NCBI RefSeq assembly: GCF_000622365.1
Contig: NZ_JASC01000013.1
Location: forward strand, 434,001 to 498,000
Reading direction: 5' to 3'
Origin: Sulfitobacter noctilucae
Lineage (GTDB): Bacteria > Pseudomonadota > Alphaproteobacteria > Rhodobacterales > Rhodobacteraceae
DNA length: 64,000 bases
Part shown: positions 7,991 to 16,154 of the stretch, piece after piece
Numbering within the stretch: position 1 is the stretch's first letter
Layout of the letters: each line of letters begins with the position of its first letter
Notes under the pieces: model-generated
The model's input: only the letters and a program-made list of their open reading frames with translations
Databases searched by the model: none
What the model was told of the DNA's origin: nothing
Translations under genes and position numbers: made by a program

Positions 7991-10693
7991 TCAGGAGAGC
8001 CGCCCATGGCAATGCTTGAACTTCTTTCCCGAACCGCACGGACAAGGATCGTTCCGACCCGGAGTACCCCAAGTGGTCGGATCGTCTTCATCAAACCCTT
8101 CTGCCACAGCTGTGGGGGAGGGTGCTGGCGGCGTATCTTCGCGTTCTCCGGCTGCCTGCATTGCGGCTTGCTGTGCGCGCATCTCTTCGATCATCGCAGC
8201 GCGCTCTTCTTCCGACATCGGCTGCACCTGACCCAATTTCTGGGTCACATCCTGACGCAGGCTGTCCAACATCTGTTCAAACAGCTGGAAGGATTCATTC
8301 TTGTATTCGTTCAGCGGATCACGCTGGGCATAGCCACGGAAGCCGACAACCGACCGCAGGTGCTCTAGCGTCATCAAATGCTCGCGCCATTTCCCGTCAA
8401 TCGCCTGAAGCAGCAGTTGCTTCTCGATGTTGCGCATGTTGTCGGGGCCAAAGGCTTCGGCTTTGTCAGCCATCATCTTGTCCATCGCCTCGACCATCCG
8501 CTCGCGGATTACTTCATCGTCGACGCCTTCTTCCTCGCACCAATCAACAATGGGGAGGTTGATGTTCAACTGCTCTATCACGGCGTCGTTAAAGCCTTTG
8601 GTATCCCATTGATCCGCGTAGGTCTTCGGCGGCATATAGGTGTCGATCAGATCGTCAATCACTTGATGGCGCATGTCCGTTGTGATCTCGGACAAGTCCT
8701 GGCTTTCCATGATATCCCGGCGCTGGCCAAAGATCACTTTGCGCTGCTCGTTCATCACGTCGTCAAATTTCAGCAATTGCTTGCGGGTGTCAAAGTTGCG
8801 TCCTTCGACTTTGGCCTGCGCACGCTCCAACGACTTGTTCACCCAAGGGTGCACAATCGCTTCGCCTTCTTTCAATCCGAGCGTTGTCAGCACTTTCTCC
8901 AGCCGTTCGGAGCCGAAGATACGCATCAGGTCGTCTTCCAATGATAGGAAGAAAGACGTGCGACCCGGATCGCCCTGACGGCCCGAACGGCCCCGCAACT
9001 GGTTGTCGATGCGGCGGCTTTCGTGACGTTCCGACGCTAACACATAGAGACCACCGGCCTCCAGCACCTTTTTCTTCTCGTCCGCATGTTCTGCTTCGAT
9101 TTTGGCGCGGATCGCTTCGGGATCTGCATCGGGGTCGGCGTCCAGCGCTTCAAGTACCTTCAGCTCGACATTGCCGCCCAGCTGAATATCGGTGCCGCGC
9201 CCGGCCATGTTCGTCGCGATTGTGACGGCACCGAATTTACCGGCATCGGCAATGATCTGGGCTTCCTGTTCATGCTGGCGGGCGTTCAGCACGTTGTGCT
9301 GGATGCCTGCGGCGGTCAGCATCTGGCTCAATTGCTCCGATTTTTCGATCGAGGTCGTACCGACAAGGCAGGGCTGGCCCTTTGCATTGGCCTCCTGCAC
9401 CTTTTCGATCATCGCCTGATATTTCTCGCCCACGGTGCGGTACACCGCATCGTCTTCGTCCACGCGGGCAATAGGCACGTTCGTTGGGATTTCGACCACG
9501 CCAAGACCATATATCTCGGCGAATTCTTCGGCTTCGGTCAGGGCGGTGCCCGTCATTCCGGCCAGTTTGTCATACAGACGGAAGTAGTTCTGGAACGTCA
9601 CGGATGCGAGCGTGACGTTTTCGGACATGATGTTTGTGCCCTCTTTCGCCTCGATCGCCTGATGCAGGCCGTCCGACAAACGACGCCCCTGCATCATACG
9701 GCCCGTGAATTCGTCGATCAGCATGACCTCGCCATCGCGGACGATGTAGTCCTTGTCCTTCTGGAACAGTGTATGCGCGCGCAAACCCTGATTGACGTGG
9801 TGCACAATGGTCGTGCTTTCCGGGTCGTAAAGTGATTGGCCTTCTTCCATCAGACCATTCTTGCGCAGTAGGTCCTCCAGAAACTCGTTGCCGTCATCCG
9901 TGAACGTCACGTTGCGGGTTTTCTCGTCCAGCTCGTAATGCTCTGGCGACAGTTCGGGGATCAGCTTGTTGATCGTCACATACATATCGGACCGGTCTTG
10001 CGCAGGACCGGAGATGATCAGCGGCGTTCGCGCTTCGTCGATGAGGATACTGTCAACCTCATCCACGATGGCGAAAAAGTGATGCCTTTGCAGAATCTCG
10101 TCCAGGTTCGACTTCATATTGTCGCGTAGGTAATCGAACCCGAGCTCGTTGTTGGTGGCATAGGTGATGTCGCAACGATAGGCATCGCGTTTGGCTTCGT
10201 TGCTCATCCCTGAAATGGCGGCACCCGTGGTCAGGCCAAGGGTGGCAAACACTTTGCCCATCCAGTCCGCGTCACGCTGCACCAGGTATTCGTTCACGGT
10301 CACGATGTGCACGCCCTTGCCGGGCAGCGCATTCAGATAGGCCGCCAAGGCCGCGGTCAGCGTTTTGCCTTCACCCGTCTTCTGTTCGGAGATATTGCCC
10401 TGATGCAGGAAAATGGCCGCCATCACCTGCGTATCAAACGCCCGCAAGCCCAGTGTACGTCGGGCCGCCTCGCGACAGTTGGCGAAAGCTTCGGGCAGAA
10501 GATCGTCAAGGCTTTCTCCGGCCATGGCGCGTTTGGCCAAGGTCTCCGTGCGGTCCTTGATTCCGGCGTCCGTCAGTTTTTCAAACTCAGGCTCCAGCGC
10601 ATTGACCTTCTCCACCAATGGGCGCACGGCCTTGATCCGACGATCGTTTGGCGTGCCAAAGACCTTTTTGGCGATTGTTCCGAAACCCAGCAT
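7991..10693 (-). CDS. secA: Protein translocase ATPase SecA
   Basis: Motor ATPase that pushes unfolded precursors through SecYEG. From the ATG at 10693 ([12 protein letters not shown]) the protein has 900 residues. The Walker A motif KTGEGKTL is at about 105-112, the DEAD-like [13 protein letters not shown] at about 210, and a C-terminal zinc/SecB-binding motif [13 protein letters not shown] lies at 884-896. GGAG sits 8 bases upstream. The frame is open to an ATG at 10819, but the extension is unlike SecA and begins upstream of the predicted promoter, so I rejected it. Divergent from the parvulin gene. Confidence 0.97.
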
Positions 10694-10734
10694 GTGTTCT
10701 CCAACAGGCGAAAAAACTATGCGCAGCGATGTGC

Positions 10735-10763
10735 TTGCCCAAGCCTGTGTCAGCCCATAGATA
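10735..10763 (+). promoter_or_regulatory. Possible promoter of the parvulin-argJ-mutT unit
   Basis: TTGCCC (10735-10740) and TAGATA (10758-10763) are 17 bases apart and lie 105 bases before the parvulin start. The match is moderate and no other evidence supports it. Confidence 0.3.
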
Positions 10764-10800
10764 GATGGGGAACCCGGCCTGCATCTGCGCCCTTTAGGGC

Positions 10801-10829
10801 GATGTAAGGGCCGCACCATAGGCTGTCAA
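10801..10829 (-). promoter_or_regulatory. Putative secA promoter with an adjacent palindrome
   Basis: On the minus strand a perfect TTGACA (10824-10829) is followed after 17 bases by TACATC (10801-10806). Overlapping the last base of the -10 and covering the likely transcription start is the palindrome CGCCCTTTAGGGCG (10788-10801). This predicts a leader of roughly 100 bases before secA. Confidence 0.5.
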
Positions 10830-10868: not shown

Positions 10869-11717
10869 ATGCAAAAACCTCTCACTTTTCTGGCGTCGAT
10901 AGCGCTTGCCGCGACTTTGACGCTGCCTGCCACCGCTCAGGACGAACCTGGCATCGATACGGTTGTGGCAACTGTTAACGGGACCGATATTACTCTCGGC
11001 CACATGATCATCGCACGCGCCACTCTGCCGGAGCAGTATCAGCAGCTCCCGGATGAGGTGCTTTTCACCGGTATCCTGGATCAACTGGTCCAGCAAAGCG
11101 CGCTCGCGGACACATTTGACGGCGAACTGCCCGACCGAGTCACCCTTTCCTTGCAGAACGAGGAACGCTCGCTCACCGCAGGCGAAGTGATCGAACAGGT
11201 GATGGCCGCCGATGTCGACGAAGCCGAGATCAAAGCCGCGTATGAGGAAACCTATGCCAATCAGGAAGCGGGCGATGAATACAACGCCTCGCATATTCTG
11301 GTCGAAACCGAGGAAGAAGCCGCAGCTTTGAAAGTGCAACTGGATGAAGGTGCCGATTTTGCGGAGCTTGCCCGCGAAAAATCCACCGGTCCTTCCGGCC
11401 CGAGTGGCGGATCGCTGGGTTGGTTTGGCCCCGGCATGATGGTGCCGTCCTTTGAAGAAGCCGTCGCGGCGATGGAGGCGGGTGCGGTTTCCGATCCAGT
11501 CCAGACGCAATTCGGCTGGCATGTGATCAAGCTGAACGAAACCCGCAAGACCGAAGCGCCAGAGCTTGACGCGGTGCGCGAAGAGCTGGAAATGCAGCTG
11601 CGTCAGACACGGGTGCAGGCCCGGATCGAAGAGATCACAGCCGAAGCAGACGTGGACCGCAGTGCCTCGGAAGGCATTGATCCGACGTTGATTAAGAACC
11701 TCGATTGGCTGGAGTAA
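10869..11717 (+). CDS. Exported parvulin-type peptidyl-prolyl cis-trans isomerase
   Basis: A periplasmic PpiC/PrsA/SurA-like foldase of 282 residues. A signal peptide covers about 1-24 (ending LPATAQ). An alpha-helical N-terminal region leads to a rotamase domain at about 135-228, with EYNASHILVETEEEA, GGSLGWFGPGMM and FGWHVIKLNE. This is the standard parvulin core. AGGA precedes the ATG. It is divergent from secA and followed at once by argJ, whose ribosome-binding site overlaps its stop. The link with secA fits a role in folding exported proteins, but clients cannot be inferred. Confidence 0.9.
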   Translation: MQKPLTFLASIALAATLTLPATAQDEPGIDTVVATVNGTDITLGHMIIARATLPEQYQQLPDEVLFTGILDQLVQQSALADTFDGELPDRVTLSLQNEERSLTAGEVIEQVMAADVDEAEIKAAYEETYANQEAGDEYNASHILVETEEEAAALKVQLDEGADFAELAREKSTGPSGPSGGSLGWFGPGMMVPSFEEAVAAMEAGAVSDPVQTQFGWHVIKLNETRKTEAPELDAVREELEMQLRQTRVQARIEEITAEADVDRSASEGIDPTLIKNLDWLE

Positions 11718-11722
11718 CCTCG

Positions 11723-12949
11723 TTGGGTCAAGTCATCAAAGTATCCCCGCTGGCACCTGTTGCGTTTCCTGAACTGCCGGTCATTGACGGCGTGCGTTTT
11801 GCCACGGCGTCAGCCGGCGTAAAGTATCAGGGGCGCACAGATGTCATGCTCACCCTGCTTGACCCGGGTACCAGCATCGCTGGCGTCTTTACCCGGTCCA
11901 AGACGCGGGCCGCGCCGGTGTTGGACTGTCAGGCCAAGATCGGTGGCGCGTCGACAGAGGGTGCCGCGATATTGGTGAACTCAGGCAATGCAAACGCTTT
12001 TACCGGACGCAGCGGTGTCGAAGCGGTTGAGGCTATTACTGCCTCCGTTTCTGACATTTGCGGCCTGCCGCAGTCGCGCGTCTTCACCTCTTCGACCGGC
12101 GTTATCGGGGAGCCGTTGCCCTTTGATCGGGTGACTTCGGTGATCGCTGATACCTTTGGTCGATTGGAAAGCACCAGCATCGCTGCTGCGGCCAAAGCGA
12201 TCATGACCACTGACACCTATCCCAAAGGCGCTACCGCGTCTGCTCAGATTGACGGGAAAACTGTCAGCATCGCTGGCATCGCAAAAGGCTCTGGCATGAT
12301 CGCGCCCGATATGGCGACGATGCTGGTGTATATTTTCACTGACGCTGTGGTCGACCAAAAGGCGCTGCAACAGTTGGTGTCTGAGCAAGCCGACAAAACG
12401 TTCAATTGCATCACCGTTGACAGCGATACCTCCACCTCGGACAGTCTGCTCGTTGCGGCCACCGGCGCGTCAGGCGTTGACGCCACTGACAGCACCGCAT
12501 TCGCAAAGGCTTTGCATGGCGTGATGCTGGATCTCGCGCATCAGGTTGTGCGCGATGGCGAGGGCGCAACCAAGTTTGTTGAGATTGCGGTGACAGGTGC
12601 CCAAAGCGATGCAGATGCCAAGACCCACGCTATGGCCATTGCCAATTCACCGCTGATCAAAACCGCGATTGCAGGGCAGGATCCGAACTGGGGTCGTATT
12701 GTGATGGCCATTGGCAAGTCCGGTGCAGAAGCGGACCGTGATCGTCTCTCCATCTGCTTCGGTGAGATCGAAGTGGCTAAGGACGGGTGGCGCAGCCCAG
12801 ACTATTCAGAGGAAGACGCCGCCGCGCATATGAAAAACGCCAATATTCAGATTGGTGTAGATCTGGGACTTGGGAACGGGACAGCTACGGTTTGGACCTG
12901 CGATCTGACCCATGGATATATCGAAATCAATGCGGATTATCGGTCTTGA
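11723..12949 (+). CDS. argJ: Bifunctional ornithine acetyltransferase / N-acetylglutamate synthase
   Basis: ArgJ transfers the acetyl group from N-acetylornithine to glutamate and, in bifunctional forms, also uses acetyl-CoA, in arginine biosynthesis. The precursor self-cleaves before a threonine into two chains; the site is T199 in KGSGMIAPDMATML. I chose the TTG at 11723 (408 residues, beginning GQVIKVSPLAP) because GGAG lies 8 bases upstream. The upstream TTG at 11705 overlaps the parvulin gene and lacks such a site. argG at 42.1 kb is a later step of the same pathway. Confidence 0.95.
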   Translation: MGQVIKVSPLAPVAFPELPVIDGVRFATASAGVKYQGRTDVMLTLLDPGTSIAGVFTRSKTRAAPVLDCQAKIGGASTEGAAILVNSGNANAFTGRSGVEAVEAITASVSDICGLPQSRVFTSSTGVIGEPLPFDRVTSVIADTFGRLESTSIAAAAKAIMTTDTYPKGATASAQIDGKTVSIAGIAKGSGMIAPDMATMLVYIFTDAVVDQKALQQLVSEQADKTFNCITVDSDTSTSDSLLVAATGASGVDATDSTAFAKALHGVMLDLAHQVVRDGEGATKFVEIAVTGAQSDADAKTHAMAIANSPLIKTAIAGQDPNWGRIVMAIGKSGAEADRDRLSICFGEIEVAKDGWRSPDYSEEDAAAHMKNANIQIGVDLGLGNGTATVWTCDLTHGYIEINADYRS

Positions 12950-13344
12950 AGACTGTTCTCGTCTCTGCGGTCGCCTTGATTGACGTAGACGGGCGCGTGT
13001 TGCTGGGCCAGCGTCCCGAAGGCAAATCCATGGCGGGGCTGTGGGAATTTCCCGGTGGCAAGGTTGAGCAGGGGGAAACGCCGGAAGTCGCGCTGATCCG
13101 GGAGTTGGAAGAGGAGTTGGGCATCAACACATGGGCCTCCTGCCTCGCCCCGCTGACCTTTGCCAGCCATTCCTATGATGACTTTCATTTGCTAATGCCC
13201 CTCTTCGCCTGCCGAAAGTGGGAAGGCACGCCCATGTCGCGGGAAAACCAAGCGTTGAAGTGGGTACACGCCAGGGATTTGCGGAACTATCCAATGCCAG
13301 CCGCTGACATTCCCCTGATTCCGATCATCAGAGATTGGTTATAA
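12946..13344 (+). CDS. mutT: 8-oxo-dGTP pyrophosphatase MutT (Nudix)
   Basis: Removes oxidised dGTP from the nucleotide pool. The 132-residue protein has a complete Nudix box at about 38-60 (GGKVEQGE, then RELEEELGI), and GLWEFPGGK just before it is typical of MutT. The likely start is the TTG at 12946, which overlaps the argJ stop (TTGA); no ATG exists at this end. Translational coupling to argJ is therefore expected. The frame is open further upstream inside argJ, but that part is not MutT-like. Confidence 0.88.
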   Translation: MKTVLVSAVALIDVDGRVLLGQRPEGKSMAGLWEFPGGKVEQGETPEVALIRELEEELGINTWASCLAPLTFASHSYDDFHLLMPLFACRKWEGTPMSRENQALKWVHARDLRNYPMPAADIPLIPIIRDWL

Positions 13345-13447
13345 AACTGATTAAAATTTGGAACTATTTTCCCGGAAGCGGAAACAATGGGCTGGCTTAG
13401 TCACATTTGGTTTACTATGATGCATATACTGTCTGGGGAGAGAGAAT

Positions 13448-13579
13448 ATGCTGCGCACTATTACGCTTGGATCCTGTGTGTCCGTTCAGGGCATTTTCGT
13501 CAAAGACTTGGCCGATGGCCGGGTCGCTGTCAAAGTTGACGAAACCGTCTATGCCGGGACACCTGTTCGCAAGAACTGA
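13448..13579 (+). CDS. Unannotated 43-residue microprotein
   Basis: The open frame starts MLRTITLGSCVSVQGIF and ends YAGTPVRKN before TGA at 13577. A strong purine-rich ribosome-binding site (GGGGAGAGAG) lies about 5 bases before the ATG. A strong intrinsic terminator follows 18 bases after the stop, so the gene makes a self-contained small unit. The composition (alternating Val/Asp/Gly, a predicted beta barrel-like pattern, no signal or membrane segment, one cysteine) suggests a small soluble beta-rich protein. A TATACT hexamer at about 13427 could be a -10 element, but no good -35 is visible. I do not know its function. Confidence 0.7.
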   Translation: MLRTITLGSCVSVQGIFVKDLADGRVAVKVDETVYAGTPVRKN

Positions 13580-13597
13580 TCCTATCGCCAAATAAAC

Positions 13598-13627
13598 AAA
13601 AGGGGCCGCATTCGCAGCCCCTTTTTT
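13598..13627. terminator. Bidirectional intrinsic terminator between the microprotein gene and infB
   Basis: AAAAGGGGC and GCCCCTTTT are arms of a stem around a 10-base loop, with T-rich tracts on both strands (TTTTTT on plus, TTTTGTTTATTT on minus). It can end both the microprotein transcript and the rimP-infB operon. Confidence 0.85.
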
Positions 13628-13673
13628 CATGTCTGACGATCAAAAAGGCGGGCGTTTCCGCCCTGCCCTGATC

Positions 13674-16154
13674 TTAGCTCAACGTCCGCGTGACTTCTTC
13701 GCGCTCGAAAATCTCGATCACGTCATCGGGGCGGATATCGTCGTAGTTCTCGAACGCCATGCCGCATTCCTGACCGGACTGCACCTCTGGTACCTCGTCC
13801 TTGAAACGCTTGAGCGTCTTGAGCGTGCCTTCGTGGATCACCACGTTGTCGCGCAGCAGACGTACACCAGCGGACCTGCGCGCCACACCTTCGGTAACCA
13901 AGCAACCGGCAACTTTACCAACACCGGTAACCTTGAACACCTCTTTGATGTTCGCGTAGCCGATGAAGGTTTCCTTGATCTCGTTGCTGAGAAGGCCGGA
14001 AGCGGCCGCTTTCACATCGTCCACCAGATCGTAGATGACGGAGTAATAGCGAATCTCCACACCCTTCTGGTTCGCAGTGTTCCGCGCAGAGGCATTGGCA
14101 CGAACGTTAAAGCCCATAATCGGCGCGCCTGACGCTTCGGCCAGACCGACGTCCGTCTCGGTAATGGCACCCACACCGGAGTGCAACACGCGCACGCGCA
14201 CCTCATCGTTGCCAATTTTCTCCATCGCCTGAACGATGGCTTCGGCCGACCCCTGCACATCTGCTTTGACCAGGATTGGCAGTTCGGAAACGTCCTCATC
14301 CGCTTTGGCGTTCGCCATCAACTGTTCAAGCGTTGTCGCCGCACCAGCCGCTGCACGTTTGTCTTTGGCCGCGTTTGCACGGTAATCCGCAATCTCACGC
14401 GCCTGCGCTTCGGTGTCTGTTACGTTCAACACATCGCCCGCTTCGGGTGTGCCGTTCAGGCCCAGAACCTCGACCGGAACCGATGGCCCGGCTTCTTTCA
14501 CGCGGTTGCCCTGATCGTCGATCAGCGCACGGACCTTACCGTACTGCTCACCCACAACAAAGATATCACCCTGACGCAGCGTACCGTTCTGAACCAGAAC
14601 AGTCGCGACGGGGCCACGGCCCACGTCAAGCTGCGCTTCGATCACGGCACCAACGGCGGCACGGTTCGGGTTCGCCTTGAGTTCAAGCAATTCGGACTGC
14701 AACGCAATGGCCTCAAGCAATTCGTCCAGACCTTTGCCTGTGGTTGCCGAAACCTCGACATCCTGCACATCGCCCGACATCTTTTCGACGATAACTTCGT
14801 GCTGCAAAAGGTCAGTCCGCACCTTGTCGGCGTTGGCCGCTGGCTTGTCGATCTTGTTGATCGCCACGATCATCGGCACCTCGGCCGCCTTGGCGTGGGC
14901 AATCGCCTCAATCGTCTGGGGCATCACAGCGTCATCCGCCGCAACCACCAGAACAACAATATCCGTTACCTGAGCACCACGAGAGCGCATGGAGGTAAAG
15001 GCCGCGTGGCCGGGTGTATCGAGGAACGACAAGATCTGGCCGCCATCGGTTTTCACCTGATAGGCACCGATGTGTTGCGTGATGCCGCCAGCCTCGCCCG
15101 CGACAACCTTCGCGTTGCGAATGGCGTCGAGCAGCGATGTCTTACCGTGGTCAACGTGACCCATGATGGTGATCACAGGGGGGCGACCAACCAGATCTTT
15201 CGGATCGTCCTCAATCTCTTTGATCACGTCCTCAACATCGGCATCGGAAACGCGCACGACCTTGTGGCCAAATTCCTCGATGATCAGTTCGGCGGTATCG
15301 GCGTCGATGGTTTCGTTCTGCGTAACCATCATACCGTTCTGCATCAGTGCTTTAACCACCGCGCCGGTTTTCTCCGCCATGCGCGCGGCCAGCTCTGACA
15401 CCATGATGGCCGGGGGCAGGTTCACATTGCGAATGATCTTTTCGCGCTCGACCGTGCCGCCCATCGCTTTCTGCCGGGCCCGCTCTTGCTTGCGCTTCAT
15501 TTGCGCCATGGAACGTTGACGTCCGCCTTCGCGACCGGCAAGCGCCTGGTTCACTGTCAGTTTGCCGGAACGGCGGTCATCGGTGCGGTTCTTTTTGTTG
15601 GTCTCCTCGCGGTCACGCTCCGTTTTGCGCGCAGCAGGGCCAGGTGCGGCCTTGTTCGGCGTTGCGCGCGCGGCAACAGGTTCGGCAGGGGCGGCGGCGG
15701 CTTGCGCTGCGGCAACGGCTTCCTGCTTTGCACGCTCTTCCTCGTCAGCTTTCGCCTTGAGGCTCTCTTCGCGTTCGCGGTCTGCCTGTTCTTTGGCTTC
15801 GATCTCGGCGCGGCGGCGCTCGCGGTCTTCTGCCCGCGCCTTTTCTTCCGCTTCACGCGCGGCTGCTTCTTCGGTCTCACGGGCCTTGGCAGCCTGAACC
15901 GCCTTCAACCGGCGCTCCATCTCGGCATCGGTGATGCCGGCGGGACGTTTGGAGGGATCGCCTACGGGTCCGGCACCCGGTCCTGTTGGCTTTTGGCCAC
16001 CAGGCTTGGGCACCACAACGCGCTTGCGTTTGGTTTCGACCACGACATTCTTGGTCCGCCCGTGGCTAAAGCTTTGCTTTACATTGCCCGGACGTGCGCC
16101 GCTGCGCAGACCCAGTGTTTTCTTGCCGTCGGTGTTGCCGTCACTATCGCTCAT
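13674..16154 (-). CDS. infB: Translation initiation factor IF-2
   Basis: GTPase that brings initiator tRNA to the 30S subunit and promotes subunit joining. The protein is 826 residues. A long, highly charged Ala/Glu/Arg-rich N-terminal region (about 75-200) is probably coiled coil. An IF2_N-like segment spans about 248-300. The G domain has GHVDHGKT at 332-339, [10 protein letters not shown] (G2), DTPGH at 379-383 and an NKID motif near 433. The C-terminal domains end in REEVTRTLS. It is the last gene of rimP-nusA-ylxR-infB, 9 bases after ylxR. Confidence 0.98.

Follow-up and report, generated by a model that had tools for sequence, protein, structure and literature searches.

The space between mutT and infB in Sulfitobacter noctilucae holds a frame of 43 codons, which raises the question of whether so small a frame is a gene and, if it is, what its product might do. 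The frame, here called X, was studied within a stretch of 64,000 nucleotides (the window) and in related genomes.

Gene order and coding evidence between mutT and infB

The following features of the window surround or make up the locus:

10869 to 11717, plus strand: gene for a parvulin-type PPIase, probably the first gene of the run that ends with X (neighbourhood analysis)
11705 to 12949, plus strand: argJ, the second gene 5' of X, with a putative start
12946 to 13344, plus strand: gene for a mutT-like NUDIX hydrolase, directly 5' of X, with an inferred TTG start at 12946 that overlaps the argJ stop
13435 to 13440, plus strand: Shine-Dalgarno sequence GGGGAG, 7 nt 5' of the X ATG
13448 to 13579, plus strand: X (group A), gene for a 43-residue predicted mini-barrel protein, ATG at 13448, TGA at 13577-13579, product MLRTITLGSCVSVQGIFVKDLADGRVAVKVDETVYAGTPVRKN (homologues, codon test and AlphaFold2)
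13598 to 13627, no strand assigned: hairpin with an A-tract and a T-tract, probably acting in both directions as terminator for X and infB (sequence and terminator scan)
13674 to 16154, minus strand: infB, convergent with X

The run PPIase-argJ-mutT-X extends from 10869 to 13579, and secA (7991-10819) is divergent to the PPIase gene. The end of mutT and the start of X are separated by 103 nt in the window. From the opposite side, infB, ylxR and nusA converge on X, so that X and infB lie tail to tail. No consensus promoter for X was found by a promoter scan of positions 12800-14200; X may be transcribed from the mutT side, besides a putative promoter of its own.

The initial annotation had claimed a frame with a strong Shine-Dalgarno sequence and its own terminator, located between mutT and infB. 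The frame, the ribosome-binding site and the location were all found as described, with mutT upstream on the plus strand and the order kept in relatives. A hairpin does follow X, but it is probably common to infB rather than X's own. The scan placed this GC-rich stem-loop at 13598-13625 on the minus strand, i.e. the infB side, and in the plus-strand reading a T run stands behind it as well. Since T runs are found beside it on both strands, the hairpin can end the X and infB transcripts alike.

A single-sequence search detected homologues of X in 98 of the 149 family genomes. With a 30-row profile they were found in 207 of 292 genomes of the order and in 4 of 385 genomes of the class, all four Rhodobacteraceae; the window's own genome is counted each time. 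The predicted mini-barrel is confined, in these searches, to Rhodobacteraceae. Conservation in relatives, which the initial annotation had suspected, is thus borne out by homologous frames. For the analysis of loci, genomic stretches matching the motif [LIV]G[ST]CVS[VI]QG were collected; 412 out of 418 encode X, and the best 80 of the 412 were used as homologue loci. As these loci were found through the motif, conservation of the motif residues is partly selected in the codon, gene-order, Shine-Dalgarno/hairpin and position-29 counts made on them. The closest homologues among these best 80 belong to Sulfitobacter and show 95% identity.

The arrangement of mutT followed by X, with infB convergent, was kept among the homologue loci. 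mutT lies 5' of X in 78 out of 80, and the remaining two end at a contig edge. infB is convergent within 900 nt in 73 of the 80 loci and in 74 without a distance limit, the additional one being L036 with infB approx. 1 kb from X. Nine loci lack mutT or a near infB; five of them are cut by a contig end and the others are L036, L095, L097 and L112, with no infB found within the 6-kb stretches of the last three. Out of the 98 matching family genomes, the best 30, the window among them, were also examined as loci. mutT was present in 30, argJ upstream in 29 (the exception, L028, is cut by a contig end) and infB in 28.

Thirty genomes without an infB-linked match were sampled as well, of which 27 gave mutT and 11 had infB within reach. 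In all 11 genomes with both flanks seen, the gap of 13-208 nt between mutT and infB holds no X-like frame. X is therefore dispensable. One of these 30 genomes, G021, has a copy of the sulfate type described below. The window's genome itself carries the infB-linked X only, and no second copy was found at E ≤ 10. A different arrangement was seen in L174 (G691:C17:114500-119500), where two tandem X copies, unlike in sequence, lie between mutT and infB at 2164 and 2431 of the reverse complement.

The substitution pattern was that of a coding sequence, and the codon-bias test named by the initial annotation thus came out in its favour. Between the window and locus L034, pS was 0.47 and pN 0.023. 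Over 105 pairs, formed by the window and 14 Sulfitobacter loci, the mean pS was 0.73 and the mean pN 0.14, values for which pN/pS is rough because pS is close to saturation. In the other two reading frames, pN was higher than pS. X starts with ATG in 75, GTG in 3 and TTG in 3 of 81 sequences (window included). Ribosome-binding sites and hairpins were counted in 79 homologues and the window (n = 80), one homologue shortened by a contig end being omitted. A Shine-Dalgarno-like motif at -16 to -4 was present in 73 of these 80 loci; of 1600 random positions, 36 had one. In 66 of the 80, a hairpin resembling a terminator lay within 110 nt of the X stop, compared to 0.4 expected from base shuffles. 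X is very probably a genuine conserved protein-coding gene.

That X might be a chance frame over a conserved non-coding element can practically be discounted. X is short and no consensus promoter was found, but the codon-position pattern, the conserved start, the Shine-Dalgarno motif, the predicted fold and the coding fusions described below all speak against it. A chance frame was rejected on the codon-position pattern and on the enrichment of Shine-Dalgarno motifs and hairpins. An RNA gene was rejected too; the Rfam search gave a single sub-threshold match, to CsrC, which covers the hairpin on the other strand with an E-value of 0.11. Among the 39 new frames in Table 1 of a proteogenomic study of Ruegeria pomeroyi (PMC3305630), none is shorter than 93 residues.

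The hexamer GTTAAC occurs between -100 and -15 of X in 13 of the 80 loci (within L034-L113), compared to 1.3 expected from shuffles. It presumably resembles a CtrA half-site, in which case it would hint at cell-cycle control.

Predicted structure and library searches

AlphaFold2 predicted X from a 30-row alignment with a pLDDT of 94.0 and a pTM of 0.69. The model has four strands, namely residues 2-7, 11-20, 26-30 and 33-39, and conservation extends over most of the chain. Foldseek returned 277 PDB matches at E ≤ 10, with a best E-value of 0.69 and none at E ≤ 0.001. Its best rows include a Tudor domain, C-terminal domains of HIV integrase, Hfq and BirA proteins, and an Lsm protein and the Hfq of Caulobacter are among the matches. 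In a second structural comparison, the top row was an IscB complex at Z 4.5. Next came C-terminal parts of BirA, then PHF1 and C-terminal domains of integrases; none of 609 chains reached Z ≥ 5. Most of these rows (BirA, integrase, Tudor and Hfq/Lsm) are what we take to be SH3-like or Sm small barrels. Like these, X is predicted to be all-β with approx. 40 residues. They account for most of the best whole-chain rows, yet the scores are non-significant and no sequence relation was found. X may thus be likened, weakly, to a minimal SH3-like small barrel, with closure of the barrel judged via non-significant matches alone.

The initial annotation had also supposed that X is unnamed, and indeed no model in Pfam, NCBIfam, PHROGs or PADLOC names it. 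When 30 members were run against Pfam, five families appeared at E ≤ 1, each in one to three members. The best were DUF5983_N with an E-value of 0.0041 (2 out of 30) and the myosin-XVIIIa SH3 domain with 0.041 (3 out of 30), and no Hfq or Sm family was matched by any of the 30 at E ≤ 1. A PDB sequence search with X gave nothing at E ≤ 10. The best PHROGs E-value among the 30 members was 0.064, PADLOC gave no match for X, no match was found in 50,697 phage records and none was confirmed in viral contigs. On these four negative results, a phage or defence origin of X was rejected.

Among the papers listed by searches of the openly accessible literature, no description of X or of the fused binding protein described below was found. 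X adds a protein family that is widespread in one bacterial family and nameless in the four model libraries searched. It is comparable to CydX and other conserved proteins of less than 50 residues in being an overlooked, widely conserved small gene. CydX is a membrane subunit, whereas X is predicted to be a soluble barrel.

A related domain in sulfate-transport operons

An X-like domain (group B) was found in sulfate-transport operons with cysT, cysW and cysA, often behind the gene of an Rrf2-type regulator. In a profile-profile comparison, groups A and B aligned over 40 gapless columns (Prob 99.2, E = 6.8e-20). Consensus residues common to both groups include T4, Q14, G15, G24 and G37. At position 10, Cys is found in 29 out of 30 infB-linked rows of an alignment made independently of the motif, and 10 of the 13 sulfate-group copies have His; in the divergent copies L192, L193, L175 and L142, Cys10 is lost. 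In a tree of 52 forty-residue domains, in which the window and L001 are identical in sequence, the 13 group B copies group with L178 with a support of 0.84, support being weak in this tree because the sequences are short.

A profile without any infB-linked copies was built from the 13 sulfate-operon copies, L178 and L179. It matched 101 of 149 family genomes at E ≤ 0.01, a few of them partially, and mostly hit the already known X places with E-values down to 2e-15. In the class, 8 of 385 genomes were matched at E ≤ 0.01. Four of these are Rhodobacteraceae, and the other four matches cover 18-31 of the 40 columns with E-values of 0.004-0.006, which is about the chance level over 385 genomes.

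Twenty loci with unusual or second copies were inspected. In 12 of them, the genes for a sulfate-binding protein (SBP), CysT and CysW lie directly 3' of the domain, with an Rrf2 relative upstream in nine of the 12. The domain stands in frame ahead of the signal peptide of the SBP, as judged by eye, in 10 of the 12 loci. In the other two, L188 and L189, it is a separate 48-codon frame that ends 39 and 34 nt, respectively, before an SBP gene with its own signal peptide. The occurrence of an X-related domain either free or fused ahead of the SBP signal peptide in sulfate-uptake operons is new. L176 and L185 have no in-frame ATG, GTG or TTG between residues 2 and 110, so that the fused protein is the sole product from such starts. 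Concerning the remaining eight loci, L174, L192 and L193 are mutT-side copies, L190 lies behind an Rrf2 gene without an SBP, and L175, L178, L179 and L191 gave no match to any of the queried neighbour genes.

The SBP was identified with NCBIfam sulfate SBP models on two fused proteins. These models (TIGR00971, PRK10752) start at residues 77 to 108 of the two proteins, and the N-terminal barrel lies outside them. The relation of the Rrf2-type regulator to the cysteine regulator CymR and to IscR goes no further than the superfamily, its matches lying far below the cut-offs of those NCBIfam models. AlphaFold2 of the whole fused precursor gave a pLDDT of 48.8, which is too poor for use.

The domain is variably present among close relatives of the fused SBP. 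Sixteen SBP genes in 15 of 149 family genomes share 72% identity or more with the L176 protein (L176 included). The domain was found in 10 of the 16, three of which (from G137, G065 and G046) are also among the 12 operon loci; L250 has a remnant and five have none. It was absent from all six more distant binding proteins compared. Two fused copies have damaged frames: in L180 (G545:C31), one of the 10 fused operon loci, the SBP frame is broken after the domain, and in L251 (G131:C104), one of the 10 domain-bearing orthologues, it is interrupted within the domain with only the second part in frame. Either sequencing errors or decay may account for this.

X relatives were also found in four plasmid records. 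Plasmids of Ponticoccus and Thioclava carry the domain as the first 40 residues, counted from its Met, of an SBP frame that follows an Rrf2-type regulator and precedes cysT, cysW and cysA. Free X copies were observed at 10058-10177 of L142 (Paracoccus marcusii pMARC3) and at 82-201 of L141 (a Paracoccus sp. MC1862 plasmid), both without a listed gene over them in a gene table known to be incomplete. A further divergent copy, L179 (2981-3118), lies between frames that resemble, by eye, an HNH-type endonuclease and a phage-type integrase.

The window's own copy is neither beside an SBP gene nor fused with one, and the window's genome has no sulfate SBP of the L176 type at E ≤ 1e-60. Given the lack of such an SBP and of a second copy, the sulfur link of the window's X is by paralogy only.

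Candidate roles of the predicted mini-barrel

The computed evidence on X comprises homology, conserved gene order, selection on the protein, a fold predicted with confidence and the related domain of the sulfate operon. Its size, its fold and the use of its relatives as a detachable domain suggest a binding module. We tentatively regard X as a real, folded, cytosolic four-stranded mini β-barrel of 43 residues, a binding module that is tied in its paralogues to sulfate uptake, and would give this reading not quite an even chance. The only functional anchor is the sulfate operon, which concerns the paralogues and bears on the window's X through homology alone.

X might act as a small adaptor for a partner, be it a protein or an RNA. 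During Sec export, a domain that is N-terminal to the signal peptide should remain cytosolic. The group B barrel would accordingly stay in the cytosol while the SBP is exported, giving it a role tied to sulfate uptake, and a cytosolic partner is expected for it, such as the transporter ATPase, a regulator, the export machinery or RNA. The infB-linked X would be a free version of this sulfate-operon module. The side chain at position 10, mostly Cys at infB and often His in the sulfate copies, may join a contact or ligand site, although it is not always Cys or His. A protein partner seems preferable, and an RNA role is its main rival.

As an RNA-binding regulator of the Hfq/Sm or KOW type, perhaps oligomeric, X would control mRNAs and, in the sulfate operon, bind its own message. 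The Caulobacter Hfq and Lsm rows of Foldseek, the Lsm Z of 3.4 in the second comparison, Lys or Arg at position 29 in 73 of 80 homologues and the neighbourhood of nusA-ylxR-infB, which belong to transcription and translation, agree with such a role. It is nevertheless somewhat unlikely, as the structural matches are non-significant, Hfq/Sm is absent from the five Pfam families matched by the 30 members at E ≤ 1, the nusA-ylxR-infB genes are convergent instead of co-directional, and a trans-acting RNA chaperone would be oddly placed ahead of a signal peptide. The barrel might also be related to export, in that a folded N-terminal cap slows or steers export of the SBP precursor and free X acts with SecA or the parvulin PPIase. 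The fused copies do precede an apparent signal peptide (by eye), and X ends a run begun by the PPIase gene, itself divergent from secA. Yet secA is on the opposite strand, the neighbourhood is one of housekeeping genes and 5 of the 16 close SBP orthologues do without the domain, so that we consider this role unlikely.

Control in cis, with translation of the frame and not its product acting on a downstream gene as attenuator or stalling leader, would suit the separate sulfate-operon frame that ends 34-39 nt before the SBP start. Rhodobacter offers a known case in which a nascent protein controls a downstream gene: with the CutF-like nascent exported sensors of Rhodobacter capsulatus (PMC9973294), a small frame likewise precedes the gene of an exported protein, and CutF, which is exported and has a downstream target, is the nearest precedent in this clade for control by a small upstream frame. 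Unlike such leaders, X has neither a stall motif nor a signal peptide as judged by eye, and with infB convergent it has no downstream target; at infB there is a terminator-like hairpin in place of a co-directional gene. Residue conservation along most of the chain, the confident fold and the fact that in L176 and L185 no ordinary start codon separates the domain from the SBP also count against a leader, which makes it quite improbable. Spread of the module by plasmids or mobile elements, with a plasmid-related role and later fixation at infB, is very improbable. The unlisted Paracoccus plasmid copies and the endonuclease- and integrase-like neighbours of the L179 copy would fit, but the infB-linked place is the commonest among the loci examined, and the phage, viral-contig and PADLOC searches were negative as stated above.

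Returning to the binding module, a more specific version would make the barrel an export-coupled feedback device, which must be called a long shot. Each exported SBP would leave one barrel on the cytosolic membrane face, tethered by the cut signal peptide, and this one-to-one count of export could be passed on to the transporter ATPase or the Rrf2-type regulator. The free X at infB would then be the same switch without its tether.

The relatives of X form a natural experiment, in which one domain of 40 residues is found free at infB, free before a transport gene and fused before a signal peptide. These three settings make its function testable by growth on different sulfur sources and by export assays. 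To our knowledge, folded N-terminal caps ahead of signal peptides have rarely been described, and annotation may clip them. In the Ponticoccus SBP record WP_251374303.1 (L143, 5001-5205), the annotated start lies 3' of the conserved N-terminal domain, so that this record lacks the domain; it is included in the Thioclava record.
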